A DNA stretch of 64,000 bases, taken from contig NZ_CP068439.1 of the NCBI RefSeq assembly GCF_016757735.1, forward strand, positions 1,488,001 to 1,552,000, written 5' to 3'. Below the pieces are notes generated by a model. The model was not told where the DNA came from and searched no databases. It saw nothing but the letters and a program-made list of their open reading frames with translations. Of the stretch, positions 1 through 34,074 are shown piece by piece. Numbering within the stretch: position 1 is the stretch's first letter; every line of letters starts with the position of its first letter. This DNA comes from Aequorivita iocasae (lineage in GTDB: Bacteria > Bacteroidota > Bacteroidia > Flavobacteriales > Flavobacteriaceae). Made by a program: the position numbers and the translations under genes.

Positions 1-1365
1 GAACAACCTGAACAATATGGTGCGGTAAAAGAAAAAGCTGACAGAATAAGCGCTATTTCAAGTGAGTTTGATTCTTATATTGAAGGTGTTAAAAGTGATA
101 TGATGAGCACTGTTAAGCCTGAAGATGCCCAAGATTACGAAGTTCAAGATAAGGCAGACTTTCTTGATCAGAAGTTTTTCCAAGGAGATAAATTATCACC
201 CGCAGGACAGGAGTTTGTTGCCCAAATTGACAAATACCGTGAAGGTGTTTTAAGTGTTATAGGTGATGATCCACGTTATCAAAGCATTGCCGCAGATGTT
301 GCTAAAAAATTTGAAACACAACCGGTTGAACGTCGTGACGGTGTTAAAGTACCTTGGTTGAATTATCATTTTGAAGGGTTTCCTTTAGTAGCTTCAAGAA
401 CAAAAATGACGCAATTACAGAATGACGTAAAAACTACCGAAAACGAGATTCTTTCAAATATGCTGGCAGGCCAGCAAGCAGCTGCGCTTTCATTTACACA
501 GTATAACACCCTTTTGGAATCCACCAAGTCTGCGTATTATGCCGGCGAAGAATTTGACGGTGGAATTGTGCTTGGACGTAAGGATCCAAATACAAGACCG
601 AATCGTGTAGAACTTACATTAGATGGAAGACCATTATCTGAAGGACAATATGCAATTGAGAACGGTAAAGTGATGTTGAAGATTAGTGCCGGTTCACCTG
701 GTGACCACAAAATTGAAGGAAATCTTATCTTCCTTGAAAACGGTGAAGAAAAAGAAATTCCTGTAAATGTAGGATTCTCAACTATTTCTAAACCAAACAG
801 TGCAGTGATTGCTGCCGATAAAATGAACGTGGTGTACCGTGGTGTAGATAACCCAATGACGGTTTCTATTCCTGGTATTCCTGACAATAAAGTAGATGCA
901 CGCGCTCCAGGTCTTTCAAAAGTTTCTGGAAGTAAATACGTAATGCGTCCAGGTACGGGAAGAACAGTTACCATTACAGCTAGTGGAACACTGCCTAATG
1001 GAGATCGTATAAGTACACCGGCCGAATTCCGTATCAAGGATATTCCGGCTCCTGTAGGTGCTATTCGTGGTGAAACCGGAATTGTACGTATGGAACGTGG
1101 AGGACTTGAGATTTCTTCGATATCTGCAGTATTGCCAGATTTCGATTTTGATGTAAACCTAAATGTTTCAGGCTTTAGTTTTAAAGTTTCTGGACAACCA
1201 ACCGTTCGTGTAAATGGAACAAAGCTTGATGCAGCCGCCAAAGGTGCGCTAAGAAGAGCTGGAAGAGGCGAGACTGTTCAAATTTTTGATATTAATGCAA
1301 GTGTTTCCGGTAGCGGAGTAATGCTTAAGAAAACGTCTCCAGTTATTATTGAATTGACAAACTAA
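1..1365 (+). CDS. gldM: GldM, gliding motility / type IX secretion motor protein (5' end cut by window)
   Basis: The reading frame is open from base 1, so the gene enters from the left; 454 residues are visible and a family member is usually a little over 500. GldM is the inner-membrane protein whose long periplasmic part forms, with GldL, the proton-driven motor of the type IX secretion system and gliding machinery. The transmembrane N-terminus lies outside the window; what is seen is the periplasmic part, a helical region followed by beta-rich domains and a C-terminal region rich in Gly and Val. gldN follows after 23 bp in the same direction, the standard gldKLMN order, which makes the call firm. 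Confidence 0.95.
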   Translation, partial: EQPEQYGAVKEKADRISAISSEFDSYIEGVKSDMMSTVKPEDAQDYEVQDKADFLDQKFFQGDKLSPAGQEFVAQIDKYREGVLSVIGDDPRYQSIAADVAKKFETQPVERRDGVKVPWLNYHFEGFPLVASRTKMTQLQNDVKTTENEILSNMLAGQQAAALSFTQYNTLLESTKSAYYAGEEFDGGIVLGRKDPNTRPNRVELTLDGRPLSEGQYAIENGKVMLKISAGSPGDHKIEGNLIFLENGEEKEIPVNVGFSTISKPNSAVIAADKMNVVYRGVDNPMTVSIPGIPDNKVDARAPGLSKVSGSKYVMRPGTGRTVTITASGTLPNGDRISTPAEFRIKDIPAPVGAIRGETGIVRMERGGLEISSISAVLPDFDFDVNLNVSGFSFKVSGQPTVRVNGTKLDAAAKGALRRAGRGETVQIFDINASVSGSGVMLKKTSPVIIELTN

Positions 1366-5778: not shown

Positions 5779-5817
5779 AAACAGGGAAAATCCTATAAAT
5801 TCTTTCGATTAATTATC

Positions 5818-5844
5818 TTAACTTGTTATTTTTTAATAAGTTAA
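5818..5844. other. Hairpin between ABC-F gene and patatin gene
   Basis: Arms TTAACTTGTTA (5818-5828) and TAATAAGTTAA (5834-5844) pair over 11 positions with one G-U and a 5-nt T loop. No T-run follows it, so it is a weak terminator at best; it could be an operator or mRNA 5' structure. It covers the upstream alternative start of the patatin ORF and so supports the later ATG. Confidence 0.5.
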
Positions 5845-5861
5845 AATTAATCGTGGGGATT

Positions 5862-7589
5862 ATGGAAAACGAAAACACTTTCAAGCTTTGTATTACAATG
5901 GCAGGTGCCGTTTCTGCGGGGGCTTATACTGCTGGCGTTTTGGATTATTTAATTGAAACACTCGACCTGTGGGAAAAGGCCAAGGAGAAAAACAGAAAAC
6001 TTGGAGTTGCACATCCAGATTATGATCACACCATCCCGATGCATCAAGTGGAGATTGACGTTATAAGTGGCTCTTCGGCTGGTGGTATTTCTGGCTCATT
6101 GACTTTTATGGCATTGGCTGACAAAAATTTCAAAAGCTTCAACAAAGACAATCCCACAGGAACCAATAACATTTTTTATAAAAGTTGGGTAGATATGGGC
6201 AACACTGCTGAAAATAGTACGGTTGATAAACTACTTAACAATAGTGATTTAAAGGAATATGGCGAAGTACGCTCTTTACTTAACACCCAAGCAATAGATG
6301 TAATTGCCGACGAAGCTCTGGCTGTACGCGAACAGCGTGAAATTCCCAAATATGCCTCAGACAGTCTTGACGTGATTTTGACTACTACCAATTTACGAGG
6401 CATTAATTTTATGGTAAATTTTGATGCAAGTGGCCGCGATACTTCTAAAGGTACGGTTATCACAAATCACGGAGGTTTTTTCAGGTATAAGCTAAAAAAT
6501 GATAAATTCCCTACTGGAATACCCGAAAAGGAAGACGAACTGTACTATGTGCTTGATCTTTCAAACGAAACGCATCTTCAATATTTAAAGGATGCCACAT
6601 TGAGTACTGCAGCATTTCCAATTGGTTTAAAATCACGGGAGGTTGCCATTTCAGCAGAATACATAAAACGGTATCCGAAATATTTGTTCAATAAATCCAA
6701 AGGCATCGAACCGCTTTTGCCCGAAGGCGCTATTTATAAATTTAACTCTGTGGATGGGGGCGTTATTAATAACGAACCCTACGGAATTGGACTGAAAGTT
6801 TTGCGGGAAAAGAACCCAAAAAGTATTGAAGCGTGCAAATACGGAGTAATAATGATAGATCCGTTTCCGAACAAAGATCACGACGTTGCTGAAAGTGGCA
6901 GCGGAATTATGAGCATAGCAGGAGGGCTTTTAAAAGCACTTCGCAATCAGGTAATGTTCAACCAGGATGGAATTTTGGACGCGCTGGATATGACAGACCG
7001 TACCAAATTTTTAATTGAGCCCATTCGTAAGATTGAAAAAGACGGGAAATGGGTTCGTCCAAAAAATGACTTGGCAGCTGCTCCCATCGGTGGATTTGCA
7101 GGGTTTTTGAGCCGAGATTTTCGGGAGCACGATTTTCAGTTGGGCAGAAAAAACTGTCAGGTTTTCTTACGATACTATTTTGCGGTAGCTTCCGAAGATA
7201 TTGAAAAACGCTTAAGTATTGTTCCCAATAGTGCCATAAAAGATAGGTATCAATTTTCGGTGCCAGCAATGGACCCGAACGGAGAAAAATTCTTTCCAAT
7301 TATACCCGATATGCGCGTGTTGCGAAATTTTGACAATCAGGTAGATAAAATCAACTATGGAAAGGATGCGGAAATTCAGGATTTACCGTACCCTAAATTA
7401 TCTTTTTCTGAGTTTGAAAGCCGTTACAAATCCAAAATAAAGGATCGCATTGGATTGATTGTGAAACATTTGCTGAAAAATAAATTTCTTTCTTTTTTGG
7501 CCAATTTCTTTTACGCAAAAAACGCAGGTTATAAATTTGTAAAAGAGGCATTGGAAAAGGAACTTGGCGAAAATGACCTCTTAAAATAA
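5862..7589 (+). CDS. Patatin-like phospholipase family protein
   Basis: 575 residues from ATG 5862 (preceded by GTGGGGATT; the in-frame start at 5823 lies inside a hairpin). The glycine-rich oxyanion motif (AGAVSAGAYTAG, residues 14-25) is followed by the nucleophile elbow SGSSAGG with Ser72, and the catalytic Asp is in VDGG near residue 295, giving the Ser-Asp dyad of patatins. The family hydrolyses acyl ester bonds of lipids. No signal peptide or outer-membrane domain is seen, so it is likely cytosolic or peripheral. The next gene starts 5 bp after the stop, suggesting one operon. Confidence 0.88.
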   Translation: MENENTFKLCITMAGAVSAGAYTAGVLDYLIETLDLWEKAKEKNRKLGVAHPDYDHTIPMHQVEIDVISGSSAGGISGSLTFMALADKNFKSFNKDNPTGTNNIFYKSWVDMGNTAENSTVDKLLNNSDLKEYGEVRSLLNTQAIDVIADEALAVREQREIPKYASDSLDVILTTTNLRGINFMVNFDASGRDTSKGTVITNHGGFFRYKLKNDKFPTGIPEKEDELYYVLDLSNETHLQYLKDATLSTAAFPIGLKSREVAISAEYIKRYPKYLFNKSKGIEPLLPEGAIYKFNSVDGGVINNEPYGIGLKVLREKNPKSIEACKYGVIMIDPFPNKDHDVAESGSGIMSIAGGLLKALRNQVMFNQDGILDALDMTDRTKFLIEPIRKIEKDGKWVRPKNDLAAAPIGGFAGFLSRDFREHDFQLGRKNCQVFLRYYFAVASEDIEKRLSIVPNSAIKDRYQFSVPAMDPNGEKFFPIIPDMRVLRNFDNQVDKINYGKDAEIQDLPYPKLSFSEFESRYKSKIKDRIGLIVKHLLKNKFLSFLANFFYAKNAGYKFVKEALEKELGENDLLK

Positions 7590-7594
7590 TAGTT

Positions 7595-7777
7595 ATGTTC
7601 GAATATTTTTTTCAATGTCCCCACTGCTGGGAAGAGATTTCGATGTTGTTGGATACTTCTGTCCGACATCAAAAATATATTGAGGATTGTGAAATTTGTT
7701 GTAACCCCATTGAATTGGAAGTAACCTTCCAAGATGGCGAACTTATTGGCTTTTCAGCGAACAGTATTGGTCAGTAA
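7595..7777 (+). CDS. CPXCG-motif cysteine-rich protein
   Basis: 60 residues. Cys8 and Cys11 (CPHC) and Cys32/Cys35/Cys36 form two CxxC-type pairs as in the small CPXCG family, likely binding one zinc ion. Function unknown. It sits 5 bp behind the patatin gene and is probably translated from the same mRNA. Confidence 0.8.
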   Translation: MFEYFFQCPHCWEEISMLLDTSVRHQKYIEDCEICCNPIELEVTFQDGELIGFSANSIGQ

Positions 7778-7824
7778 GTTTTATTTTTTTAAATTTATGG
7801 AAACAAACCAACCCAGAACATCCT

Positions 7825-8178
7825 ATGCTCTCCACATTTAGTCTTGCAGACAACATTATTGGTTTTATTATAGATGGTCCTTACAATGAAAATTCAGTTG
7901 ATAAAATTCAAAATGAAGTTTTAGAGAAATTAGAATATTTTGATACCGTTAGTTTTTATATTGAAGATACTTCCAATGCTGAAATCTCGCTCAAGGCTGT
8001 ATTGAAAAGCATTCCTTTTAAGATTAAGACCGGGAACCGTTTTGAAAAAGTGGCAGTAGTTACAGATCGGAAATGGGTACAGCTTTTTAGTTCTCTTGAG
8101 AAACTTTTTTTTAACGCCGAAATACGTCTTTTTAATTCAAAACAAAGGCTTGAAGCTATTCAGTGGATAAGCCATTAA
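7825..8178 (+). CDS. SpoIIAA-like (STAS-type) domain protein
   Basis: 117 residues with the alternating strand/helix pattern of the SpoIIAA-like family (PF11964): strands near residues 10-18, 37-47 and 72-80 and a C-terminal helix ending AIQWI. Members occur in bacteria with no fixed role, sometimes linked to membrane or stress processes. It follows the cysteine-rich gene by 47 bp and is convergent (2 bp) with the AsmA-like gene. Confidence 0.7.
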   Translation: MLSTFSLADNIIGFIIDGPYNENSVDKIQNEVLEKLEYFDTVSFYIEDTSNAEISLKAVLKSIPFKIKTGNRFEKVAVVTDRKWVQLFSSLEKLFFNAEIRLFNSKQRLEAIQWISH

Positions 8179-8180
8179 AA

Positions 8181-9728
8181 TTAGATCAGGATTTTTTTAA
8201 GGGCGTTTTTTATGTTCAGCCATAAAAAATTAAAAACAGATTTTGACTTGTTGCGCGTAGCTTCTGCGGTTCCTTCTTTGTAATATTCGTTTTTTTCTTG
8301 ACTGTTTTTGGAGATAAAAATGTTTGCCACAGCAGATAGAAACTTATTTTTCTTTTCACCTTCATTTTGCAAAAGCAAAACCTTAAAATCTGAATATTTA
8401 ATCTTCATATCTATTGTTGATGTATCATTATTACCATCAATTGTAAAATATGTTTGGTCGGTAGTGCCCTCCAATCTCACTTTTAAATTAGGCTCGGTAA
8501 AACTGTTAAGTCTATCTGCTACTAAGTGACCTACATCGGCACTGAATAGAAACTGATCATTTTTATTTTGTACATCAAAACTCCAATTTACAGAGATTGG
8601 CGTATTTTCCATAAAGTCGGCTTTTATCTTCGCTTCGGTTTTAGTGGGACTACTGTAGGTGTTGCTCACATTTGAGATGGATGCTTCAAGATTTTCAAAA
8701 TTTATGGATCCGCCCATGTTTTCAGCCTTCTGTCGTTCTTCATAGATTATTTTCGCATCGCTAATTTTTAAAGAATCAATTGTTAGGTCAAAAGGTAGTT
8801 CACGTAACATTTTACTGTACAACGGTTTTGTTTTTGTTTCGTCTGCTACCAATTTATCCCTGTAAATTTCAAGCGATGGAGCAGACAAGGAAAGCAATTT
8901 GCTTTTTGCAAAGAAACGATTTTGGTTAAAGCCAAAATCAATTCCTTCAACTGAGAGGGATTTTAAGGAAAGGTCATAATGATCGCGTTCTTTTGAAATC
9001 AATTTTGAAAGCTCCCTTTTTGAATACTTAGTTTTTAAAATTAAATTTTCAAAAAATGCGTTTCGATTTTCAACGGTAAAATCTTTTACTGTAAGATTTT
9101 CATAGGGACTTACCTTCACAAAAACAGTATCGCTTTTTGCAGTATAACTTTTATATTCCAAAGGTATTTTGCGCTTTATTGTTTGGGCATCTATTTTTAT
9201 TCCTTCAATAGCAACAGAAAGTCCCTTGGTATAAAGCTCTGTAGAGTCTTTTGCTTTTTCATAAATGGCAAATTTGGTATTGTTTACATTTAAACGATCA
9301 ATTAGTATAGGCTTGTATACTGATAAGAAATCATTGTTTTGGGTACTTTCATTTTTTGCTATTCTATCTTGGTAATAAGCGATTGTAGGATTGGTGAGCG
9401 TGATTGCTTCTATATGAATTTCACTATTAAAGAGATAATCCCAGTAACTGATGTCAGAGATTTTAAGTTTTTCAACATTTACAAATGTATGCTTTGCGCC
9501 ATTTTCTTTATTTTCTATTATTAGAGATGCATTTGTAATGGTAAGTGAACCACCAAAAGTTTCTACAGTAATGTCGTCATAAGCACGGATTATATTTTGC
9601 GGCAGGCGATCCTCGATGAAGTTTTCCAGCTTTTTTTTAAGGATAATGTTTACCGTTACCGTTCCAATTATAAACAATGCGCCCAAAGAGAGTACTGTAT
9701 AAATAATTTTTTTAAATCCATTTTTCAT
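8181..9728 (-). CDS. AsmA/DUF748-like membrane-anchored protein
   Basis: 515 residues with one N-terminal transmembrane segment (about 7-28) and a long extracytoplasmic part of repeated beta strands with SLKSLSVEGIDFGF-type units, the look of AsmA/DUF748 (TAM/AsmA) proteins that bridge or shape the envelope. The family assignment rests on architecture, not on a sharp motif. It is a single gene transcribed away from tRNA-fMet. Confidence 0.6.
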   Translation of the reverse strand: MKNGFKKIIYTVLSLGALFIIGTVTVNIILKKKLENFIEDRLPQNIIRAYDDITVETFGGSLTITNASLIIENKENGAKHTFVNVEKLKISDISYWDYLFNSEIHIEAITLTNPTIAYYQDRIAKNESTQNNDFLSVYKPILIDRLNVNNTKFAIYEKAKDSTELYTKGLSVAIEGIKIDAQTIKRKIPLEYKSYTAKSDTVFVKVSPYENLTVKDFTVENRNAFFENLILKTKYSKRELSKLISKERDHYDLSLKSLSVEGIDFGFNQNRFFAKSKLLSLSAPSLEIYRDKLVADETKTKPLYSKMLRELPFDLTIDSLKISDAKIIYEERQKAENMGGSINFENLEASISNVSNTYSSPTKTEAKIKADFMENTPISVNWSFDVQNKNDQFLFSADVGHLVADRLNSFTEPNLKVRLEGTTDQTYFTIDGNNDTSTIDMKIKYSDFKVLLLQNEGEKKNKFLSAVANIFISKNSQEKNEYYKEGTAEATRNKSKSVFNFLWLNIKNALKKILI

Positions 9729-9799
9729 AATTTAAATATAAGCAATGTTGAAAGGAAAAAGACAATGAAGTTTATTTTTAAAAAATTTGTCTTTCATCA

Positions 9800-9829
9800 T
9801 TGGAAACTCTAAAAAGCTTTGTATCTTTG
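9800..9829 (+). promoter_or_regulatory. Flavobacterial-type promoter of tRNA-fMet
   Basis: TTG at 9800-9802, exactly 19 bp, then TATCTTTG at 9822-9829: a full match to the flavobacterial -33/-7 consensus TTG-N19-TAnnTTTG. The tRNA begins 11 bp downstream. This is the cleanest promoter in the window and supports the phylum call. Confidence 0.85.
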
Positions 9830-9839
9830 CCGTCCATAT

Positions 9840-9912
<73 letters not shown>

Positions 9913-9918
9913 CAAAGA

Positions 9919-9947
9919 AAAACCTCCAATTTCAGGAGGTTTTTTTA
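9919..9947 (+). terminator. Terminator of tRNA-fMet
   Basis: Stem AAACCTCC / GGAGGTTT around a 7-nt loop followed by seven T, beginning 7 bp after the tRNA. Confidence 0.85.
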
Positions 9948-10035
9948 TGCCCGTTTTTAACTGCAAAAACAATTCTTTAACAACATTTTTACATACCATT
10001 TAGTACATTAGCTGTTTATTTTTAATTGAACACTA

Positions 10036-11970
10036 ATGAAGTATTTCACACTCAGTTTCTTGGTTTCACTGTTTCTCACAACGATTCCGCTTACATTATT
10101 TGCTCAGCAAGCAAACCCCAACAATCAAGATCTTTTCGATAATGTTAGTTACAGACAAGGCAATGTTTACCGAACGGCTTCGGGTAAACCGGGGCCCGAA
10201 TATTGGCAAAACTCCGCAGATTATATTTTGAAGGCTACTCTGGACGATAAAACGCATACCGTTTCTGGAAATGTGACGATTCATTATACCAACAACAGTC
10301 CAGAAACTTTAGATTTTATTTGGATCTATTTAGAACAAAATCGATTTACCGAAAATTCCCGCGGAACCTTAACAACTCCTGTTCAGGGAAACCGCTACAA
10401 TGGTGATATTGAAGGCGGCTTTGAATTAAGCAACGTCTCAGCAAAAACAAAAACGGGCACTTCTTCCCAATATATAATTACCGATACGCGTATGCAACTT
10501 TGGCTCGATAAGCCTTTGGCTGCAAAAGGAGGAGAGGTTGAAATAAAAATGGATTTTAAATTTAAAGTTCCTGTTGAGGGGATGGACCGCATGGGCCGCC
10601 TAGAGGTAAAAGACGGCACTATATACGCCATAGCACAATGGTATCCGAGAGTTGCAGTTTTTGACGATGTAGTGGGCTGGAATACTGATCCCTATTTGGG
10701 TGCAGGCGAATTTTACTGCGAATATGGAAATTATGATGTAATGATTACCGCTCCTGCAAACCAAACCGTAGTTTGTTCGGGTGTATTGCAAAACCCTAAA
10801 GAAGTACTTACAAAAGAACAACAGGACCGTTGGTCACAAGCTGAAAAAAGTGACAAAACAGTTTATATTATTAAACCGGAGGAAGTTGGAAAGCCAGTGG
10901 CGCACGCAAAAACCGGAGGTACGCTCACGTGGCATTATAAAATGGAGAATACCCGCGATGTGGCTTGGGCAGCTTCCAAAGCATTTATTTGGGACGCAGC
11001 ACGCATGAATCTTGGCGAAGGCAAAACAGGATTGGCCCAATCAGTTTATCCAAAAGAAAGTGACGGAAAAACCGCTTGGTCACGCTCAACGGAATTTACC
11101 AAAGCATCTGTAGAATTTTATTCAAAAAAATATTTCACTTACCCATATTATAACGCAATAAACGTGGCGGCAAGTGTAGGTGGAATGGAATATCCCGGTG
11201 TTAGTTTTTGTCATTACCAAAGCAGGGATGCAGATCTGTGGGACGTAACAGACCACGAGTTTGGGCACAACTGGTTCCCAATGATTGTAGGCAGTAACGA
11301 ACGACGCTATCCATGGATGGATGAAGGTTTCAATACTTTTATAAACCATTACAGTACTGATGCTTTTAATAATGGTGAATTTCCAACAACTACAGACAAA
11401 CCAAAAAATTTAGTGCGCTATTTAAGCTTTGAAAACCGTGAGAGTATTGATACTTATCCCGATGTGGCCAATGCAATGAATTTAGCATATACGGCCTATT
11501 ATAAACCAGCAGCGGGACTTTATTTGCTTCGTGAGTACATACTTGGCGGTGAACGTTTTGACAATGCTTTTAAAAGTTATATTCACACTTGGGCTTTCAA
11601 ACACCCGCAGCCTAATGACTTTTTTAACCATATGGAAAACGTGGCAGGCGAAGATCTTTCCTGGTTTTGGAAAGGCTGGTTTTATGGTAATGGAAATATT
11701 GATTTAGGCATTTCAGAAGTAAAACCTTTCAACGGCAATTATCTAATTACAGTTGAAAATGACGGGCAGATACCGATGCCGGTCCAATTGCAAGTGATTT
11801 ATGAAGACAATTCAAAAGAAGAAATCTCGCTTCCCGTTGAAATCTGGCAGCGTGGCAATAGCTGGACGCACCTTTTAAAAACGACCAAACAAGTGCAGCG
11901 CGTGGTTTTGGATCCCAATAAAATGCTGCCCGATGTAAATGTTTTGAACGACACTTGGAATAAAATTTAA
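10036..11970 (+). CDS. M1 family (gluzincin) metallopeptidase, exported
   Basis: 644 residues with a signal peptide (hydrophobic residues 5-23, ending LFAQQ). The zinc site is HEFGH at residues 407-411 with Glu430 in DEG, the HExxH-x18-E spacing of M1 aminopeptidases. It is shorter than PepN-type enzymes and matches the roughly 600-residue exported M1 proteins common in Bacteroidota. Expected to cleave N-terminal residues from peptides in the periplasm or outside. Stands alone and ends at a strong terminator. Confidence 0.9.
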   Translation: MKYFTLSFLVSLFLTTIPLTLFAQQANPNNQDLFDNVSYRQGNVYRTASGKPGPEYWQNSADYILKATLDDKTHTVSGNVTIHYTNNSPETLDFIWIYLEQNRFTENSRGTLTTPVQGNRYNGDIEGGFELSNVSAKTKTGTSSQYIITDTRMQLWLDKPLAAKGGEVEIKMDFKFKVPVEGMDRMGRLEVKDGTIYAIAQWYPRVAVFDDVVGWNTDPYLGAGEFYCEYGNYDVMITAPANQTVVCSGVLQNPKEVLTKEQQDRWSQAEKSDKTVYIIKPEEVGKPVAHAKTGGTLTWHYKMENTRDVAWAASKAFIWDAARMNLGEGKTGLAQSVYPKESDGKTAWSRSTEFTKASVEFYSKKYFTYPYYNAINVAASVGGMEYPGVSFCHYQSRDADLWDVTDHEFGHNWFPMIVGSNERRYPWMDEGFNTFINHYSTDAFNNGEFPTTTDKPKNLVRYLSFENRESIDTYPDVANAMNLAYTAYYKPAAGLYLLREYILGGERFDNAFKSYIHTWAFKHPQPNDFFNHMENVAGEDLSWFWKGWFYGNGNIDLGISEVKPFNGNYLITVENDGQIPMPVQLQVIYEDNSKEEISLPVEIWQRGNSWTHLLKTTKQVQRVVLDPNKMLPDVNVLNDTWNKI

Positions 11971-26398: not shown

Positions 26399-27220
26399 AT
26401 GAAAAAAAGAAAAAGAGTTAAAACTAAAATGATTGAATTTAGAAACCCATACCATATTGAACCACCAGGGGCTTTACGTGAGATATTATCACATCCAGCA
26501 AATGAAACTGAAGTAATTGAACTTGCAGTATTTCAAGAACATCGGTATGCATTCTTCTACTGGAATAAATGGGTACGGAAAAACGAAGGTAATAATCCGC
26601 CTTGTCTAATTTCATTAGATTGGCACCAAGATTTATGCTATCCCTGTGAAACAGAAAGGAAATGGTTAGATAATTTGGATTTAGAAAGTGATGCGGAAGT
26701 ATCTTTGTTTTCGTGGGCAAAACTCAATGGTCTTAATGATGGCCATATTTTAAGTGCAGCCTATCTCAATTTGATTGGGGATATTTATGTGCATTGTAGA
26801 CAAGAGCTTGGTCAGAACACTTGGAAAGATGAAGAACTGATTGATACCTATGGAAACAGCCACGCAATCAAAAAATTCAAAACGTATGAAGCCTTACAAG
26901 ATGCACTATTGAATTCTTCAGAAACATCCGTGTTTTTTGATATTGATTTGGACTTCTTTTCAGTAAAGAATGGCTTAAGTGATGGTTCATTTGAATTTAC
27001 CTACTTACAGGAAGAAGAAATACGAAAAATGCTAAACAAGGATAATCCATTAATTAACTGGATTTTTAAACGTATAAAAGGTTTCACAATTGCCACTGAA
27101 CCAGAACATTGCGGTGGACTTTTAAGAAGTAATAAGTTTCTTGATTTAATTAGCGAAATCTATTTCAGTCCAGAATTGTTTGCACCTAAATGTAATTGGA
27201 AATGGAAACCTAAATATTGA
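26399..27220 (+). CDS. UPF0489 family protein
   Basis: 273 residues from ATG 26399, 2 bp after the toxin stop (ATG 26429 is an alternative start and gives MIEFRNPYHIEPPG). Two acidic metal-site-like motifs are clear: SLDWHQD (about residue 73) and FFDIDLDFFS (about 180), followed by EPEHCGG (about 235). UPF0489 proteins resemble the arginase/deacetylase fold, but their reaction is not known. The tight spacing ties it to the AbiE pair, which normally has only two genes. Confidence 0.75.
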   Translation: MKKRKRVKTKMIEFRNPYHIEPPGALREILSHPANETEVIELAVFQEHRYAFFYWNKWVRKNEGNNPPCLISLDWHQDLCYPCETERKWLDNLDLESDAEVSLFSWAKLNGLNDGHILSAAYLNLIGDIYVHCRQELGQNTWKDEELIDTYGNSHAIKKFKTYEALQDALLNSSETSVFFDIDLDFFSVKNGLSDGSFEFTYLQEEEIRKMLNKDNPLINWIFKRIKGFTIATEPEHCGGLLRSNKFLDLISEIYFSPELFAPKCNWKWKPKY

Positions 27221-27246
27221 TGATGAATTGAATCGACATTAATATT

Positions 27247-27420
27247 GCCATTCAGCCCATTCCCCTGCATTCCGCAAAAAGCTTCATTTCGGTAAATACG
27301 CTTCATTATAAAGGTCTTGGACACAACTTCAAATCTTCCGATTTCCATTGCGCTGAACCTGCCATAAAAATGGCAGAATCGCTTCATTCCCAATCTACAT
27401 CTTTAAAGTCAAGTCCGCTT
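27247..27420. repeat. Structured repeat R1
   Basis: About 175 bp with no credible gene, homologous to R2 and R3. Shared blocks: CATTCCCCTGCATT, several GCnnCATTTC units, TCTTGGACACAA, TTTCCATT and AAGTCCGC. In the variable part it has a hairpin CTGCCAT-AAAA-ATGGCAG (27359-27376) at the place where R2 and R3 have hairpins of other sequence. Confidence 0.8.
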
Positions 27421-27450
27421 TAAGCCCTACTAAATAAGGATAATTTGTTT

Positions 27451-27629
27451 TCATAATCCAGTAAGCACATTCCCCTGCATTTCGCGAAAAGCTGCATTCC
27501 GAGAAAAGAGCTTACCTAAAAAGGTCTTGGACACAATCCCCAATTTTGACTTTCCATTCCGTTAACTCGATCCGCTGCGCTGGAACGGAACACTTCATTT
27601 CCAAGCCAAAATCGTGAATTAAGTCCGCT
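27451..27629. repeat. Structured repeat R2
   Basis: Second copy, 30 bp after R1 in the same orientation and about 85% like R3. Its variable hairpin is TTCCGTT (27557-27563) with AACGGAA (27584-27590). It runs straight into leader copy 3. Confidence 0.85.
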
Positions 27630-27641
27630 AAAAATAACATA

Positions 27642-27815
27642 AATAATCAATCAATATCGGCGCAAAGGTAAACTCGTAAAATACACCCATCAAAAGACTA
27701 CGGCATAAAGCCATCGCACCATCCTACGCTTATTTATTCCGTTTCCTTTTGAGCTGTGATTTTAGCTTCCGTTTGGGTAATGCTCAAATATTGTTTAACT
27801 AAAATATATAAAATT
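27642..27815 (+). repeat. Conserved leader, copy 3 (upstream of a 55-residue ORF)
   Basis: Same blocks as copies 1 and 2, including the 5' extension seen in copy 2. Ends directly before ATG 27816. Confidence 0.85.
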
Positions 27816-27983
27816 ATGAAACAATTATCTGTAAAACCCAGCATTTCATTAAAAGAAGCGGAAGAACATTATCAATTGAGTAGTGAAAATTACACAATTG
27901 ATAGTGCAGAGACTCATTTAGCTTATTACAGAGATAAGCATCAGCTGTACTACCGAACACTTTTAAATCATTATTCAAACTAA
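27816..27983 (+). CDS. Hypothetical 55-residue ICE protein
   Basis: Starts MKQLSVKPSISLKEAEEHYQ, soluble and mostly helical. No family recognised. The support is its position right behind the third leader copy, at the same distance as parB and the DUF932 gene behind theirs, and the short gap to the next ORF. Confidence 0.6.
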   Translation: MKQLSVKPSISLKEAEEHYQLSSENYTIDSAETHLAYYRDKHQLYYRTLLNHYSN

Positions 27984-27994
27984 AACCTCACATT

Positions 27995-28249
27995 ATGGAA
28001 AATTTTAATTTTGTACAACTTGATTTTGGATTCGAGTGTGAACCCGAATCTACACAGAAAAAATCATCGAAATCAAACAAAAAGCGAAGTAACGATTTCG
28101 TTTTTAATTTTATGGATTGTCTCACCAGTCCCATCATTGTCTTTAAATCTGCTTGGAAAGATACAATACCAAGAGACATACTTAAAAACATAAAATTATC
28201 ACGACTATTATGTTCAATGCAACAAGAAGAAATGGCATCGCTTACATAA
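27995..28249 (+). CDS. Hypothetical 84-residue ICE protein
   Basis: Lysine/serine-rich stretch (KKSSKSNKKRS, about residues 22-33) followed by a hydrophobic segment around VFNFMDCLTSPIIVF. No family recognised. It lies 11 bp after the previous ORF in the same direction, likely the same mRNA. Confidence 0.5.
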   Translation: MENFNFVQLDFGFECEPESTQKKSSKSNKKRSNDFVFNFMDCLTSPIIVFKSAWKDTIPRDILKNIKLSRLLCSMQQEEMASLT

Positions 28250-28261
28250 ACTTTAGCATAT

Positions 28262-28546
28262 ATGATGCCCAGAACTTATGAAGCACCAATGCCTACCGAA
28301 TGGGTAAATATTTATACTTGGCTAGGTCTTCAGTATGCAATTCAGTTTAAGAATAGTGGCCAATTGAATGCAATGACTGAAATCGCACCAAGCAAACTTT
28401 CAGAATATGAAATGGGACGTTTGAATAGTTTGAGAAGTTGGATTTATGATAAAAGAAGAAAGGCTTTAAAAGATAGATTAAAAATAGCTGAAAAATCAGA
28501 AACAAAAATATTATCTGAAAATCAAAAAATACTTTTTGAAGAGTGA
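28262..28546 (+). CDS. Hypothetical 94-residue ICE protein
   Basis: Begins MMPRTYEAPMPTEWVNIYTW, then a highly charged helical C-terminal half (about 55-90). No family recognised. Third ORF of a small cluster behind leader copy 3, 12 bp after the previous one. Confidence 0.5.
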   Translation: MMPRTYEAPMPTEWVNIYTWLGLQYAIQFKNSGQLNAMTEIAPSKLSEYEMGRLNSLRSWIYDKRRKALKDRLKIAEKSETKILSENQKILFEE

Positions 28547-28579
28547 GCTAACTATTCACCCTTTTATTTAATACGAGTT

Positions 28580-28757
28580 TCATAAGCCATTCAGCACATT
28601 CCCCTGCATTTCGCGAAAAGCTACATTTCGGGAAAAGAGCTTCACTACAAATATCTTGGACACAATCCCCAATTTCGACTTTCCATTCCGTTAACCCTTC
28701 CCGATTCTCTGGGAAGGAACACTACATTTCCAAGCCAAAATCGTGAATAGCGTCCGC
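28580..28757. repeat. Structured repeat R3
   Basis: Third copy, same orientation as R1 and R2. Its variable hairpin is CCTTCCC (28696-28702) with GGGAAGG (28711-28717), different in sequence from both others but at the same place. Short ORFs through it lie in different frames in the three copies, so it is not protein coding. Confidence 0.85.
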
Positions 28758-28783
28758 CAAATCGGAATTCCATTTAATGATTT

Positions 28784-29066
28784 GGTGTCGCTTCCTACGT
28801 TTTTATACTTCACAAAAGCTTTTAGACCTACATCCGCACCCTCGCTGTTATACCCTTTTTTTGCCAGCAAAATACCAACATTTTGAACTTGAACAGACTG
28901 CATAAAACGTTCTCGCTGCGCTTCACTTTTTATAAGTCCTTATCAATTCAAAATCTTGAAAATGTATCAGCAACAAAAAAAGGTAACAGCGAGGGCGCTA
29001 TGGGAAGTAAATCTAAAATGAATCTTATGAAATCTTACAAAAACATCAAAAAGGAAGCGACACCAA
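28784..29066. repeat. Foldback (long inverted repeat) element
   Basis: Outer arms GGTGTCGCTTCC and GGAAGCGACACC; inner arms CCCTCGCTGTTA (28839-28850) with TAACAGCGAGGG (28984-28995), and CCTTTTTTTGC (28854-28864) with GCAACAAAAAAAGG (28970-28983). The DNA between outer and inner arms is also partly complementary, so each arm is roughly 80-100 bp around a loop of about 105 bp. It may be a MITE-like foldback element or an inverted duplication of part of a small gene. No clear target-site duplication is seen. Confidence 0.75.
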
Positions 29067-29173
29067 AAAAAACAAAAAAGGAAAACGCTCAAGATATAAT
29101 AAGTAAATCACTTCAAAAAAATATAACAATAAACTGTCTGAATGGTTCAGATAGCATTTTAATTAATCTTTAA
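29000..29173 (+). CDS. Possible 57-residue lysine-rich ORF before ssb
   Basis: From ATG 29000, MGSKSKMNLMKSYKNIKKEA..., basic and low in complexity. It overlaps the right arm of the foldback element and ends 10 bp before ssb. The left arm read on the minus strand gives a related peptide (NSEGADVG... against NSEGAMGS...), which could mean a real but duplicated small gene. Weakly supported. Confidence 0.3.
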   Translation: MGSKSKMNLMKSYKNIKKEATPKKTKKENAQDIISKSLQKNITINCLNGSDSILINL

Positions 29174-29183
29174 ATATTTTATT

Positions 29184-29528
29184 ATGAGTACTTTAAAAAA
29201 TCACGTACAGTTAATCGGAAACGTTGGACAAGAGCCAACCATTACAAACCTTGAAAGCGGTAAAAAAGTAGCCCGTTTTTCACTCGCTACTAATGAGTAT
29301 TACAAGGATGCCAAAGGCGAAAAACAAACAGAAACCAATTGGCATACCGTTGTGGCTTGGGGCAAGACTGCCGAAATTATCGAAAAATTTGTAGGTAAAG
29401 GCAAGGAAGTAGGTGTTACGGGAAAATTGAAATCCCGAAGCTACGAGGACAAAGAGGGTATCAAGCGATTTGTTACCGAAATCGAAGCAAATGAAATCCT
29501 TTTACTTGGAAGTAAAAATGACAAGTAA
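29184..29528 (+). CDS. ssb: Single-stranded DNA-binding protein 1 (ICE)
   Basis: 114 residues spanning one OB-fold: NHVQLIGNVGQEP at the start, TNWHTVVAWGK in the middle, EANEILLLG at the end. The acidic C-terminal tail (DDDIPF-like) that recruits host proteins in housekeeping SSB is absent. SSB on an ICE likely covers the transferred strand. Followed by its own terminator. Confidence 0.93.
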   Translation: MSTLKNHVQLIGNVGQEPTITNLESGKKVARFSLATNEYYKDAKGEKQTETNWHTVVAWGKTAEIIEKFVGKGKEVGVTGKLKSRSYEDKEGIKRFVTEIEANEILLLGSKNDK

Positions 29529-29540
29529 TTCTTAAAAATT

Positions 29541-29577
29541 AAAGAGGGCGTTCCTCTCGAAAGTTGCGCCCTTTTTT
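29541..29577 (+). terminator. Terminator after ssb 1
   Basis: Stem AAGAGGGCG / CGCCCTTTT with a 16-nt loop and a T run, 13 bp after the stop. Confidence 0.75.
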
Positions 29578-29603
29578 CATTAAAAATCTTTAAAATTTTT
29601 ATT

Positions 29604-29948
29604 ATGAAAACTATTAAAAATCACGTTCAGTTAATCGGGAACTTTGGGCAAGACCCACAGGTTACAAATCTTGAAAACGGAAAAATTGTGGCGCAGTTCT
29701 CAATGGCTACAAATGAAAATTACGAAGACTCAAAAGGGCAGAAGCAATCGGAAACCCATTGGCATAGTATTGTGGCTTGGGGAAAACTTGCTTCAATCAT
29801 TGAGAAATATGCAGTAGTAGGAAAACAAATTGCCATTGCGGGCAAATTGGCGCAACGCTCTTATGAAACCAAGGAAGGCGAAAAACGATACTATACCGAA
29901 GTTGTAGCAAGGGAAATTCTTTTGGTCGGGTCTAAAAATGGTAAGTAA
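29604..29948 (+). CDS. ssb: Single-stranded DNA-binding protein 2 (ICE)
   Basis: A tandem paralogue of the same length (114 residues), about 65% identical to the first, with the same NHVQLIGNFGQDP start and no acidic tail (ends LLVGSKNGK). Even the sequence before the start (AAAATTTTTATT) resembles that of ssb 1, so upstream control was duplicated too. Confidence 0.93.
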   Translation: MKTIKNHVQLIGNFGQDPQVTNLENGKIVAQFSMATNENYEDSKGQKQSETHWHSIVAWGKLASIIEKYAVVGKQIAIAGKLAQRSYETKEGEKRYYTEVVAREILLVGSKNGK

Positions 29949-29960
29949 CCATAAAAATCC

Positions 29961-30006
29961 AAGAGGGCACAGATACCAGTTTTCAATTAGTTCGTGCCCT
30001 CTTTTA
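29961..30006 (+). terminator. Terminator after ssb 2
   Basis: Stem AAGAGGGCAC / GTGCCCTCTTTT around a 23-nt loop. It shares AAGAGGGC with the ssb 1 terminator, so gene and terminator were duplicated as a unit. Confidence 0.75.
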
Positions 30007-30030
30007 ATTATTCACTTAAATAAATGAACA

Positions 30031-30411
30031 ATGAAAGCACAAGTTAACGAAATAAAAGAAGGATTGCAACATTTTCACGGTACGGAAATGTTCTATCAAA
30101 TCCCATTATTAAGAACACGTTTTACAGACGGACTAAAATATCTTGCTAATGTAGCAGATTGTTTTTGGCTCATTACGGACACTTCCGTAATTGCAAAAAG
30201 TCTGATGAACCGAAGCGAATTTGTTACCATCGACTTTAAAAGATTACCCGAAGATGAACAAGTCGTTACAGGCTACGAAGCTGAAATTATTTATACCGAT
30301 GGCAACGATAATGTTCTGGAAAAACACGGCTATCGGGCAACCCATTTTCCGCTCGATGAATTGCGTTTATTTTTTGTAAATGATACGCTGATGTTACCAA
30401 GCGAATACTAA
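30031..30411 (+). CDS. DUF6876 family protein
   Basis: 126 residues, soluble. The sequence (MFYQIPLL...DGLKYLANVADCFWLIT ... YRATHFPLDEL) matches the DUF6876 pattern seen on Bacteroidota ICEs and plasmids. Function unknown. It lies 12 bp before the next ORF. Confidence 0.75.
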   Translation: MKAQVNEIKEGLQHFHGTEMFYQIPLLRTRFTDGLKYLANVADCFWLITDTSVIAKSLMNRSEFVTIDFKRLPEDEQVVTGYEAEIIYTDGNDNVLEKHGYRATHFPLDELRLFFVNDTLMLPSEY

Positions 30412-30422
30412 AATTTAAAGCT

Positions 30423-30620
30423 ATGGTTTATCTAAATTTTACAGACTTGAGCGAGGAGGCTCAAAACCGTCTTTTAGAAAATTCTAAAAAAGATGTGGAA
30501 CGAAAATTTGGCGATGATATTCGCAAATACGTAAGGGAAAATTATACCTGTTTTGAAACGATGATAGAGGAAGAAGCATTACGAAATTTATATTCCTATA
30601 AGTTCATATTCAACATCTAA
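30423..30620 (+). CDS. Hypothetical 65-residue ICE protein
   Basis: MVYLNFTDLSEEAQNRLLENSKKD..., a small acidic helical protein. Similar short proteins follow DUF6876 genes on related elements. Function unknown. Followed by a terminator. Confidence 0.6.
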   Translation: MVYLNFTDLSEEAQNRLLENSKKDVERKFGDDIRKYVRENYTCFETMIEEEALRNLYSYKFIFNI

Positions 30621-30641
30621 TTTTCTAAACTTAATAATCAA

Positions 30642-30668
30642 GCACCTCTAAATTTTGGAGGTGTTTTT
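30642..30668 (+). terminator. Terminator after the DUF6876 unit
   Basis: Stem CACCTC / GAGGTG, a 9-nt loop and five T. Confidence 0.7.
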
Positions 30669-30856
30669 GTATGCAATTAATTTCAAGTCGAGAAAAAAGC
30701 GTATCTTTATTTCGCTGAAATTCAGCTCACATAAATTCATATAGTTATCCCATTTTTAACTTTCGCTGATAGCTGTATCCATCTATATTTTACATTGAGG
30801 AATTTTCGAATTCCTAAAAGGCAATTGGCTTTTTAGCCAGATTGTATGAAATTTTT

Positions 30857-31060
30857 GTTCGCCTGTGGCGAACGAAAAGGAATAGCAAGAGGGTAACGGG
30901 CAGAGCCACGTTACATATTTCTTTTAGCGTATAATCCATTAATTTTCAAATACTTGAAAATTAATGGATTATATAAATTTCTTCGATTTGCGTCAAATGC
31001 CCCCACACAGTCTGTAAACAGGGATGGATTTACGTCAAACACAAAAAAAAGCGAAAAAAA
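30857..31060. other. Probable oriT region upstream of the mob genes
   Basis: Within the 440-bp gene-free gap before the mobilisation genes are a hairpin GTTCGCC-TGT-GGCGAAC (30857-30873), a perfect inverted repeat with 19-bp arms and a 4-bp spacer (30931-30949 and 30954-30972), and a repeated ATTTGCGTCAAA / ATTTACGTCAAA pair near 30986 and 31029. Inverted repeats next to relaxase genes are the usual form of oriT. The nic site cannot be placed. Bases 30669-30856 hold only a short palindrome (GCTGAA-A-TTCAGC, 30714-30726). Confidence 0.55.
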
Positions 31061-31441
31061 ATGGATTCATTCATCACCATCAGGTTCAAAAGGAAAACTG
31101 CCAAACGTTTTCAGGAATTTTCAAAGACACACTTCAAGACCCATACCGAAGCAATGGAAAATATTCTTGATTTTTTCTTCTATAACGAGATATCCCCAAA
31201 GGAAAAATTGGGTCCGACAGGGCGAACCATCGAAGCCAAACTATTAAAAAGAATCAATGCAGTAATCGCTATAATGAGGGATGTTGAAAAGACCCAAACC
31301 AAGCCCACGGTCGCAATGATTCAATCCCTTTTTGAGACAGAACAGCCAAACAAAAAACCGCTGATTTTGGAAAAGAAATATGCCGAAGAAAAAAAGGAAG
31401 TACGCTTCCGTGAAAAACAAAATCCAAGTAACCAACTGTAA
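31061..31441 (+). CDS. BfmA/BtgA-type mobilisation protein
   Basis: 126 residues. A ribbon-helix-helix-like N-terminus (FITIRFKRKTAKRFQEF...) is followed by a basic, helical C-terminus, as in BfmA/BtgA accessory mobilisation proteins that bind near oriT. It directly precedes the relaxase gene (11 bp), the usual two-gene mob operon. Confidence 0.8.
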   Translation: MDSFITIRFKRKTAKRFQEFSKTHFKTHTEAMENILDFFFYNEISPKEKLGPTGRTIEAKLLKRINAVIAIMRDVEKTQTKPTVAMIQSLFETEQPNKKPLILEKKYAEEKKEVRFREKQNPSNQL

Positions 31442-31452
31442 ATTTTTGAGCT

Positions 31453-32484
31453 ATGTATATTACAATCTCACCTCAAAAAATAGGAGGTAATTATTCTAAA
31501 AGTTCGGCTGATTTTGTTGGCTATCTGGAGAAGGAAAACCAAGGATTGGAACAACAGGATATGGAGCATTTTTTTAACCAATATGGCGACGAGATTTCAG
31601 CAGAGGAAGTGGTCAAGGAAATTGATGGCAATACGGCAAAACTCGAAAAGCACGAACCACGGTTTTATTCCATTACCGTAAGCCCATCTAAATACGAACT
31701 GAAACGGTTGCAGAACCATAGTGAGGATTTGCAAAAATACACCCGTGAGATTATGAAGGATTATGTGGCTTCATTTAATCGCGAAATCAATGGGCGACCC
31801 ATTACAATCGATGATATAAAATACTATGCTAAAATTGAACACCAAAGAGCCTTTAAAGGAACGGACTTTCAGATAAAAGAAAACCAACCGTATGCCACAA
31901 AAATACTTCAACTAAAAACTGAAATCCGAAATGTGCAAGATGGACGAGCAGAAGGGAATGTGAAAAAATTGGAAAAAGAAATAGGGAAACTCGAAAGAGA
32001 AGCCCCACACCAACAGAACGGAAAACGAATCGTACAAGGAATGCCAAAAGCAGGAAACCAAAGTCATATCCATATAATTGTGAGCCGTAAGGATGCTTCC
32101 AATAAATTCAGCTTGTCCCCAGGAAGTAAGTACAAAGCTTCCGATGTTGAATTAAATGGTAAAACGGTAAAACGGGGATTTGACAGAGATGGATTTTTTA
32201 CAAAAGCAGAAAAGACTTTTGACAAGACTTTTGACTATCAAAGGAACTTCGCCGAAACCTATAAAGCAAGAAAGGATTTCATCAAGAATCCGAAAATCTA
32301 TTTTGCTTCATTAATGAAACTGCCCACCAACGAAAAAGCATTGGCGTTCAAAATAATGGGGAAAAGTGGCATCCCGATGATGCCGAGTATTCCTGTTACA
32401 CAGGCACAATTGGCGATGAAAATTTTTAATAGTCTACGACGTGGTGCGGAAGTAGCCATTAAATCGAGTTCCATCGGAATCTAA
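31453..32484 (+). CDS. Relaxase/mobilisation protein (DUF5712, MobB-like)
   Basis: 343 residues. The HxH-type metal motif SHIHIIVSRKD (about residue 203) fits the relaxase fold; the first half holds the likely tyrosine region (YSITVSPSKYELKRL). Relaxases nick one strand at oriT and lead it into the recipient. It sits between the accessory mob gene and the coupling protein gene. Confidence 0.82.
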   Translation: MYITISPQKIGGNYSKSSADFVGYLEKENQGLEQQDMEHFFNQYGDEISAEEVVKEIDGNTAKLEKHEPRFYSITVSPSKYELKRLQNHSEDLQKYTREIMKDYVASFNREINGRPITIDDIKYYAKIEHQRAFKGTDFQIKENQPYATKILQLKTEIRNVQDGRAEGNVKKLEKEIGKLEREAPHQQNGKRIVQGMPKAGNQSHIHIIVSRKDASNKFSLSPGSKYKASDVELNGKTVKRGFDRDGFFTKAEKTFDKTFDYQRNFAETYKARKDFIKNPKIYFASLMKLPTNEKALAFKIMGKSGIPMMPSIPVTQAQLAMKIFNSLRRGAEVAIKSSSIGI

Positions 32485-32493
32485 TTTAAAATT

Positions 32494-34074
32494 ATGCAAA
32501 TGGACAATCTCGTAACTGTACTTTTTATTATTGGTTTGGCCAGTAGTGTTTTCTATGGAATATTTCGGATAAGCAGATATGCATTTGTCGTCAATTTTCT
32601 GTTGATTGGCGCACTTGTATATTATTTAAATGAACAATTACCATTGGTGCAAGTAGCACTTTACTTGGTTTGTCCTCTGATATTAATTAATATAGGAATG
32701 TATGTATTCTTGCATAAAACGGACGAGCCTAAAAGTGGAAATGCCAAATATCAGGTCAACTTTGCCACTACAAAAGGTAACTTCAAACTGGATAACATCA
32801 AACGTGGTGCATCTATAATCGGTTCTGCGGGAAGTGGAAAGACCGAAAGTGTAGTCTATGGTTTTTTGAAACACTTCGAAAAAGAAGGGTTTTGCGGTAT
32901 TATTCACGATTACAAAGATTTTGAACTGACCGAAATAGCTTATCCACTCTTTAAGGATGGCGATATCCCTTTTAAGGTCATTTCCTTCGATAAAATCATC
33001 CATAGGGTAAATCCTATTGCGCCACGCTATTTAGAGAACGAGGAAAGCGTAAATGAGGTTTCAAGGGTATTAATTGAAAACCTTTTAGAACAAAGGGAAT
33101 CAGGAACAACCGGAACAACTAAATTTTTCAATGATGCTGCGGAAGGCTTGATTGGTGGATTGATTTGGAAATTGAAAACGACCTATCCACAATTCTGTAC
33201 CCTTCCACACTTAATTGCGGTTTATCAATATTTGGACACGGAAAGCCTTATCCGATTTTTGGAAACCAATACGACATCGAGGGCAATGGCAGATGCTTTT
33301 ATTAGTGGAAAGGATTCTGAAAGACAGACCGCAGGAGTAAAAAGCACCTTGGCCAATGCTTTGAAACGAATTAGTACACAGCGCATTTTTATGGCGTTGT
33401 CTGCGGACGAAGTTCCTTTAAATATAAATAGTCCAGAAAACCCCTGTGTGATTTCAATAGTGAACAATCCAAAATTTGAAACATCTTATTCGCCTGTAAT
33501 AGCGACCATCATTCATACGATTACAAAGCAAATGAGCATTCGGAATTCTAAACCATCTTTTCTATTGATGGAAGAAGCACCAACCATTCGTTTATTGAAT
33601 ATGCATCGTATTCCTGCGACACTTCGAAGCTATAATATTTCTACGATTTATGTGATGCAGGACAAAATACAAAATGATATGATGTATGGGGACAAGGCAA
33701 GCAAAGCGATTTTAAGCAATCTATCCTATCAATTTTTCGGTAAAGTCAATGACCCAGACACCGCAAAATATTACGAACGGTTTTTTGAAATTATTAAGGA
33801 TCCTACCAAAAGTATAAGTCGTGGGCATAATCTCGATTTTGATACTCGAATTACAACTGGAGAAAAAGAAATACCAAAAATTAGGGCAGATGTCTTTTTC
33901 AGATTGAAACAAGGCGAATTTATAACCTATGCAGATGGAAAGGATAAAAAGATACAGTTCAAGTTAGCCAATATTAAAAGAGAGTTTCCGCAAGAATCGA
34001 AGCAGTATTCTCAGTTTGATTTGGAAGCTAATTTTGAACGGGTTTATGAGGAGGCGCAGTCGATATTTGGGTAA
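32494..34074 (+). CDS. Type IV coupling protein (VirD4/TraG-like ATPase)
   Basis: 526 residues. Two or three N-terminal transmembrane helices (about 6-75) anchor it; the cytosolic ATPase has Walker A GSAGSGKTE (about residue 110) and Walker B FLLMEEAPT (about 353). It links the relaxase-DNA complex to the secretion channel. Start at ATG 32494; a second ATG two codons on is possible. Confidence 0.9.
   Translation: MQMDNLVTVLFIIGLASSVFYGIFRISRYAFVVNFLLIGALVYYLNEQLPLVQVALYLVCPLILINIGMYVFLHKTDEPKSGNAKYQVNFATTKGNFKLDNIKRGASIIGSAGSGKTESVVYGFLKHFEKEGFCGIIHDYKDFELTEIAYPLFKDGDIPFKVISFDKIIHRVNPIAPRYLENEESVNEVSRVLIENLLEQRESGTTGTTKFFNDAAEGLIGGLIWKLKTTYPQFCTLPHLIAVYQYLDTESLIRFLETNTTSRAMADAFISGKDSERQTAGVKSTLANALKRISTQRIFMALSADEVPLNINSPENPCVISIVNNPKFETSYSPVIATIIHTITKQMSIRNSKPSFLLMEEAPTIRLLNMHRIPATLRSYNISTIYVMQDKIQNDMMYGDKASKAILSNLSYQFFGKVNDPDTAKYYERFFEIIKDPTKSISRGHNLDFDTRITTGEKEIPKIRADVFFRLKQGEFITYADGKDKKIQFKLANIKREFPQESKQYSQFDLEANFERVYEEAQSIFG

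Follow-up and report, generated by a model that had tools for sequence, protein, structure and literature searches.

Orientation-specific, non-coding sequences with several stem-loops lie near mobilization genes as the sso of rolling-circle plasmids and as sso1 of ICEBs1, and structure is reported to be able to outweigh sequence in an sso (PMC4595007). ICEBs1 sso1 lies downstream of the relaxase gene. In F-like plasmids, Frpo/ssi is a non-coding fold upstream of ssb, one strand of which is the template of the leading genes (PMC9849209, PMC11541004). The sgm-sRNA of SGI1, a demonstrated transcript, is non-coding and lies beside the oriT of an integrated mobile element (PMC9299015).

The repeat described here, termed R, resembles sso in its orientation specificity, non-coding character, stem-loops and closeness to mobilization genes, Frpo/ssi in its place upstream of ssb, with one strand that could serve as the leading-gene template, and sgm-sRNA in its place beside an oriT. 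The likeness to sso and to Frpo is one of description. Unlike sso, R forms tandem arrays of two subtypes, and its position relative to the relaxase gene differs from that of sso1. Unlike Frpo, R occurs also without ssb and belongs to a different phylum; scans of its linear sequence for TAnnTTTG showed no enrichment, and inspection of its folded duplex by eye brought out no clear -35/-10 boxes. Whereas the sgm-sRNA is a demonstrated transcript, no transcript of R is known. Integron attC sites also have a bottom-strand fold with a variable tip and conserved lower parts, and also occur in tandem copies. However, the polarity of R follows oriT, its size and loops differ from those commonly ascribed to attC, and no integrase was noticed beside R in the 23 + 20 loci examined.

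The R repeat is real and constitutes an undescribed family. No such Bacteroidota element, and no account of the priming or expression of incoming single-stranded DNA in Bacteroidota elements, was found in the literature searched by title and abstract opening; subscription papers lay mostly outside that search, and an earlier description of R is possible.

A repeat array upstream of ssb and a probable oriT

The window analyzed is a stretch of 64,000 nucleotides from Aequorivita iocasae (contig NZ_CP068439.1, 1,488,001 to 1,552,000). The original prediction placed three structured repeat copies at 27247-28757, and they are present there by sequence identity: R2 and R3 are 86% identical across 184 nt, and R1 is 77% identical to R2 and 80% identical to R3, each across 90 nt. 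The range also contains three small ORFs between R2 and R3, outside the repeat. The array is part of an Aequorivita mobile element in which ssb, a probable oriT, and a MobB relaxase gene follow it downstream (Table 1).

Table 1. Features of the R locus, in window coordinates
Feature	Coordinates	Strand	Details
R1	27249..27418	-	type B copy; covariance model match 119.2 bits; in alignment A2
R2	27459..27628	-	type A copy; covariance model match 183.7 bits; itself among the model-building sequences
R3	28588..28757	-	type A copy nearest ssb and oriT; covariance model match 197.1 bits; also a model sequence
FB, long fold-back	28781..29067	-	outer arms 28781-28796 and 29052-29067; inverted repeat I1
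ssb, single-strand DNA-binding protein	29184..29528	+	PF00436, E 1e-33
Second ssb	29604..29948	+	TIGR00621, 7.2e-34
DUF6876 protein, conserved neighbor	30031..30411	+	PF21781, 1.9e-30; cluster c3 in 16/23 loci
c4, conserved 65-aa protein, final gene before the oriT gap	30423..30620	+	cluster c4 in 16/23 loci
Probable oriT (predicted)	30857..30912		IR1 30857-30873; invariant core 30877-30897; bulged IR2 30895-30912
BfmA/BtgA family mobilization protein	31061..31441	+	NF041200, 3.4e-23, above cut-off
MobB family relaxase	31453..32484	+	NF041495, 3e-122, above cut-off
Type IV coupling protein	32494..34074	+	PF02534, 3e-14, above cut-off

The usual order at R loci is R, ssb, DUF6876, the 65-aa protein (no Pfam or NCBIfam match), a gap, BfmA, MobB relaxase, and coupling protein. 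An ssb gene accompanies R in 21 of the first 23 loci, usually with R upstream and in template orientation, and in 9 of the 20 loci of a second sample that was partly chosen for having no relaxase. Both inverted repeats in the gap covary around the invariant core (55 distinct contexts, 45 of them listed), and this sequence is a probable oriT. The core was found at ≤2 mismatches in 18 of 27 R genomes. The oriT pattern also matches islands without a MobB relaxase (e.g. L141 and L129). L141 combines R, the oriT core, BfmA, and a gene that on reading resembles a tyrosine recombinase, and has no ssb.

A profile search of the initial loci gave 82 distinct R copies, and a covariance model run over 71 sources returned 124 matches, including two antisense self-hits (L125 and L126). 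Elsewhere in the Aequorivita genome, further copies of R lie at 3.138 Mb, and a weak copy lies at 1.238 Mb. Units in an array follow each other about every 190-230 bp, and copy number differs between arrays. R1 represents a second subtype, type B, set apart from type A by both sides of its lower stem. In the 11 arrays with both subtypes that were sorted (the window, L037 (two), L038, L039 (two), L040, L041, L042, L048, and L050), type B is distal and type A proximal to ssb and oriT.

The conserved fold lies on the minus strand

On its minus strand R forms two hairpins, HP1 and HP2. HP1 combines an outer stem GGAC/GTCC with a subtype-specific lower stem (..ATTCACAATTTT.. in type A versus ..ACTTCAAAGATG.. 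in type B), internal loops of the form [GNA]-AT-[GNA], and a tip stem that varies between copies. HP2 reads CCC-[GNA]-AT-[GNA]-GC-loop-GC-[GNA]-AT-[GNA]-GGG, and the linker between the hairpins is nearly invariant (GTCCAAGA). The GCnnCATTTC units first noticed as an internal periodicity are genuine. Their minus-strand sequence is GNAATGNAGC, which gives rise to paired 3x3 GNA/GNA internal loops flanking AT/AT steps, and the periodicity arises because the hairpin stems are built from such GNA/AT units. Some copies carry a CCCTTCGACTGCGCTCAGGA-like insert in HP1 (L012, L027, and L051), and in some the tip of HP2 is extended by additional sequence or a further hairpin (L049, L051, L053, L017, and L028).

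A hairpin that keeps its place while changing its sequence had been proposed for all three copies. This holds for R1 (CTGCCAT/ATGGCAG) and R3 (CCTTCCC/GGGAAGG), whose stems are homologous. The stem assigned to R2, TTCCGTT/AACGGAA, lies in another register, and its TTCCGTT block occurs also in R3; the homologous stem of R2 is by reading CGATCC/GGAACG, with one A.A mismatch. The fold also belongs to the minus strand, opposite to the strand that was read.

For comparative analysis, 64 dissimilar copies were retained from 96 nearly full-length matches; alignment A1 comprises 43 of the 44 copies typed A. The type A set includes one true type B row (L040, 7.8 kb) that was missed by the typing pattern and is present in the wobble counts, the 500-shuffle test, the substitution classes, and the strict A1 covariation test. 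In the 43-sequence alignment 92.4% of cells pair, versus 35-50% with the partner slid, and two-sided changes occur in 21 of 48 pairs, a number reached in 0 of 500 shuffles; one of five covariation measures, that for further pair types, was matched by 6 of 500. Covariation was then assessed against a phylogeny-aware null with our own R-scape-like script on 107 R rows, obtained from the 124 matches by removing rows <120 nt and rows >95% identical. Four column pairs were significant at E ≤0.05 among all pairs, and all four lie in the structure; in a restricted test of the same rows, 7 of 43 structure pairs passed. The covariance model was built on A1, and both the 124-match search and the 107-row test therefore lean towards the A1 structure. 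When the strict test was applied to the subtypes alone, A1 gave two pairs (one in the structure and one near it) and A2 none; this result and the measure matched by 6 of 500 shuffles count against the single-stranded DNA site proposed below. The original prediction that paired change marks a conserved RNA or single-stranded DNA fold is supported against slid and shuffled controls and a phylogeny-aware null, and the wider alignment it called for gave significant pairs exclusively within the structure.

The consensus energy of the 107 rows was -58.2 on the minus strand versus -34.7 on the plus strand (alifold). Wobbles on the minus strand, counted over all 64 copies, were G.T 242 versus A.C 33 in type A and G.T 107 versus A.C 13 in type B, the structures used for these wobble and substitution counts (in R, and in the fold-back described below) having come from the same alignments that were then counted. 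The G.T excess is split evenly between C>T (116) and A>G (115), versus 26 and 4. Deamination was rejected as the sole cause of the asymmetry, since C>T and A>G contribute alike and one-sided deamination would not produce this. Individually, the minus strand had the lower energy in 101 of 102 copies when RNA parameters were used, and in 98 of 102 under DNA parameters. Mean z values over the 102 copies were -2.45 (minus) and -1.71 (plus) as RNA, and -1.89 (minus) and -1.54 (plus) as DNA. As minus-strand RNA, R3 had z -3.5 with a centroid nearly identical to the minimum free energy structure, and R1 had z -2.5. As minus-strand DNA, R3 with its flanks (28570-28769) reached a z of only -0.5. R as DNA is modestly stable relative to shuffled sequence, with the plus strand close behind, which again counts against a single-stranded DNA site; we have relied on covariation because the stability of single copies as DNA is weak.

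R is non-coding and its flanks are little conserved

A coding reading of R was rejected. None of the six frames stays open through the core in more than 26 of 113 copies, and core lengths fall 41, 41, and 31 into the three classes modulo 3, in agreement with the original observation that reading frames are not kept. R is thus a non-coding sequence with a conserved fold on one strand, the minus strand. The deduplicated flanks (53 five-prime and 76 three-prime) are little conserved at 0.09-0.42 bits per position, as averages over 10-nt blocks. Within 450 nt 5' of the R unit a Bacteroidota-type -7 box was not enriched (14 of 62 versus 18.7 in shuffles), and in an 80-nt scan the count was marginal (6 of 53 versus 2.4). 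The arrangement TTTG-17..21-TAnnTTTG was found in 2 of 62 on each strand, versus 1.1 and 0.4, with no clear enrichment, a further point against the proposed DNA site, and TAnnTTTG was not enriched on the linear R sequence. Conventional promoters on either strand were accordingly set aside, with no clear enrichment and one marginal count, and the flanks of R are without a conserved promoter or end.

A long fold-back separates R from ssb

The interval between R3 and ssb contains a long fold-back, FB. For the segment 28762-29190 folded as DNA, the minus strand had z -9.4 and the plus strand z -7.4. A strong fold between R and ssb was found in 21 of 21 ssb loci (z -4.2 to -15.9, 12 shuffles each, with gaps >620 nt (L043) trimmed to the 620 nt adjoining ssb). 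An alignment of FB from 15 of these 21 loci, which omits six gaps for their length (L043, L046, L049, L050, L051, and L053), had energies of -144 on the minus strand versus -115 on the plus strand. On the minus strand the 15 sequences had wobbles of G.T 181 versus A.C 23, and 22 of 114 pairs had two-sided changes. One arm of FB is strongly conserved and the other tracks it through paired changes. FB extends over the beginning of c6 (MGSKSK...), a small conserved ORF. Among the six omitted loci, the R-ssb fold inspected was that of L049, which differs in sequence and shape. A permissive Rfam scan of 27200-31100 gave two sub-threshold matches, to the miRNA model MIR8007 (on FB) and to Yfr10. In six further loci the R-oriT interval folds with minus-strand z values of -1.5 to -5.0 and no strand preference.

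The polarity of R follows the predicted oriT

The orientation of R is fixed relative to the predicted oriT. With cores accepted at ≤3 mismatches in 56 large loci, and drawing on all 124 R matches, 83 of 85 R-core pairs had the same polarity and two, both in L126, were opposite. Removal of the L126 antisense self-hit left 82 of 83 pairs with the same polarity; the lone opposite pair involves a doubtful core with 3 mismatches, 7.3 kb away and beside a separate BfmA gene. The relation holds also for R copies 8-15 kb from the core. In the core's own polarity, R lies upstream of 40 of 43 cores. The exceptions are the doubtful core and a single genome, in two contigs of which (L175 and L176) R keeps its polarity but sits on the opposite side of the core. 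This change of side counts against a single-stranded DNA site, as does the fact that a core within 3 mismatches was not found in 14 of the 56 loci.

Distribution of R

The R family is present across marine Flavobacteriaceae. By blastn, R was found in 30 of 197 genomes, the Aequorivita genome included, and a MobB relaxase was above cut-off in 27. The two occurred together in 20 genomes versus 4.1 expected; 10 had R only and 7 the relaxase only, and one of the latter (G057) has R by the covariance model. At the order level 20 of 296 genomes had an R match (two weak), and at the class level 7 of 396 (one weak); the two samples have genomes in common, and the filters applied to them were stricter and miss weak matches. 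R was present in all six class-level genomes with a close relaxase (>370 bits), which include the Aequorivita genome and one genome from a different family (G728), and was absent from eight with a more distant, split relaxase above cut-off.

A scan of named genomes for the R pattern pointed to the same family: among the 80 of 120 stretches that were listed, 78 titles name what we take to be Flavobacteriaceae. R-pattern matches in a Spirochaetia MAG (L219) and an Acidobacteria MAG (L258) may be chance matches or binning errors. A blastn search with 28560-28790 gave no match among 72,556 records of plasmids and 50,697 of phages, a viral collection gave no R-pattern match, and at gathering score Rfam has no family for R, two tRNAs being its only matches in the window. 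L130 has four R matches (two weak) on one strand at 5119-11627 amid genes mostly on the opposite strand, and no ssb, relaxase, or oriT core was found in that 16-kb stretch; this arrangement counts against a single-stranded DNA site.

Possible functions of R

We propose, with a probability of about 0.5, that R is a cis-acting site of folded single-stranded DNA on the conjugatively transferred strand, which here would most likely be the minus strand. The fold on one strand, the polarity tied to oriT, the usual vicinity of ssb and oriT, the co-distribution with the relaxase, and one small element without ssb all point to this. Much the same evidence bears on the three options offered originally, among which a part of a replication or transfer origin fits best, given the polarity of R, its usual proximity to the oriT core, its ssb, BfmA, and MobB neighbors, and its co-distribution with the relaxase. 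A small mobile unit finds no support, because the flanks are little conserved beyond the core and the polarity of R follows oriT.

The main rival is an RNA. R would then be a structured non-coding minus-strand RNA of ~170 nt, transcribed singly or within a tandem precursor and required for transfer or its control. The minus-strand RNA folds of R3 and R1 are well defined, the mean z of the 102 copies is slightly stronger as RNA than as DNA, and RNA typically shows GNA/GNA loops and G.U wobbles. However, the 5' and 3' flanks are little conserved, the -7 box is not enriched within 450 nt 5' despite the marginal 80-nt count, the transcript would be antisense to the ssb operon, and an RNA acting in trans would not need a polarity tied to oriT. 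A precedent exists in SGI1, which requires an sRNA encoded between mpsA and oriT (PMC9299015); on balance we regard an RNA as rather unlikely at R, if still to be taken seriously.

A role for R in recombination, as a folded or unfolded site at which cargo modules are exchanged in the manner of integron attC or by homologous recombination, is improbable. Such a site would account for the variable copy number of the arrays and for the way R brackets an AbiE-containing module in L049, L051 (where the left match is partial), and L053. However, no recombinase family was noticed to be kept beside R in the 23 + 20 loci, a cluster c145 being present in some islands; loci with a single R occur (e.g. 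L052 and L054); and homologous recombination would be a by-product that leaves the strand-specific fold unexplained. It is more improbable still, and can be given little credence, that R acts upstream of ssb as ordinary double-stranded DNA, whether as a regulatory region or as an array bound by protein: R is usually upstream of ssb in the same orientation, but two-sided changes and strand-specific wobbles would not be expected of double-stranded DNA, R is found without ssb (L141), and promoter consensus sequences are not enriched.

For the preferred reading, a folded single-stranded DNA site, the best interpretation by analogy is an sso/ssi- or Frpo-like element for second-strand priming and/or early expression. 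The minus strand is taken to be the transferred one because, as a general rule (PMC11541004), the relaxase gene is usually the last to enter. We infer that the folded strand is the transferred strand, that DNA is the active molecule, and that an enzyme is recruited. A point against this is that IR1, read on the plus strand, comes 5' of the core; judged by the layout of other oriTs, such a placement could mean transfer of the plus strand. In the proposed scheme the transferred strand would enter the recipient 5' end first from the probable oriT, so that the c4, DUF6876, and ssb genes, FB, and the R array would be early arrivals. Each R would fold into HP1 and HP2 on the incoming strand and could attract host primase or RNA polymerase, leading to second-strand synthesis in the manner of sso/ssi and/or to transcription of leading genes in the manner of Frpo. 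The long FB before ssb may be a promoter-like part, and multiple R copies would give multiple start points. Because a small element carries R without ssb, we favor a broader function in the establishment of the incoming strand over a promoter for ssb only.

More tentatively, R and FB may together form the single-strand control region of a Flavobacteriaceae ICE clade, a folded single-stranded DNA family with GNA/GNA zipper stems, often in an ordered array, through which incoming DNA would be primed and transcribed while still single-stranded. This would make it a Bacteroidota counterpart of sso/Frpo that arose independently. With its strand-specific covariation, its usual place, and a predicted oriT, the R family is a concrete target for deletion, and the R covariance model provides a means of finding leading regions and mobilizable islands in Bacteroidota.

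In three genera, R matches flank the same AbiE-containing cargo module (L049 6532-13320, L051 5484-12168, and L053 6510-13270), and these shared modules look as if they had been exchanged between R repeats.
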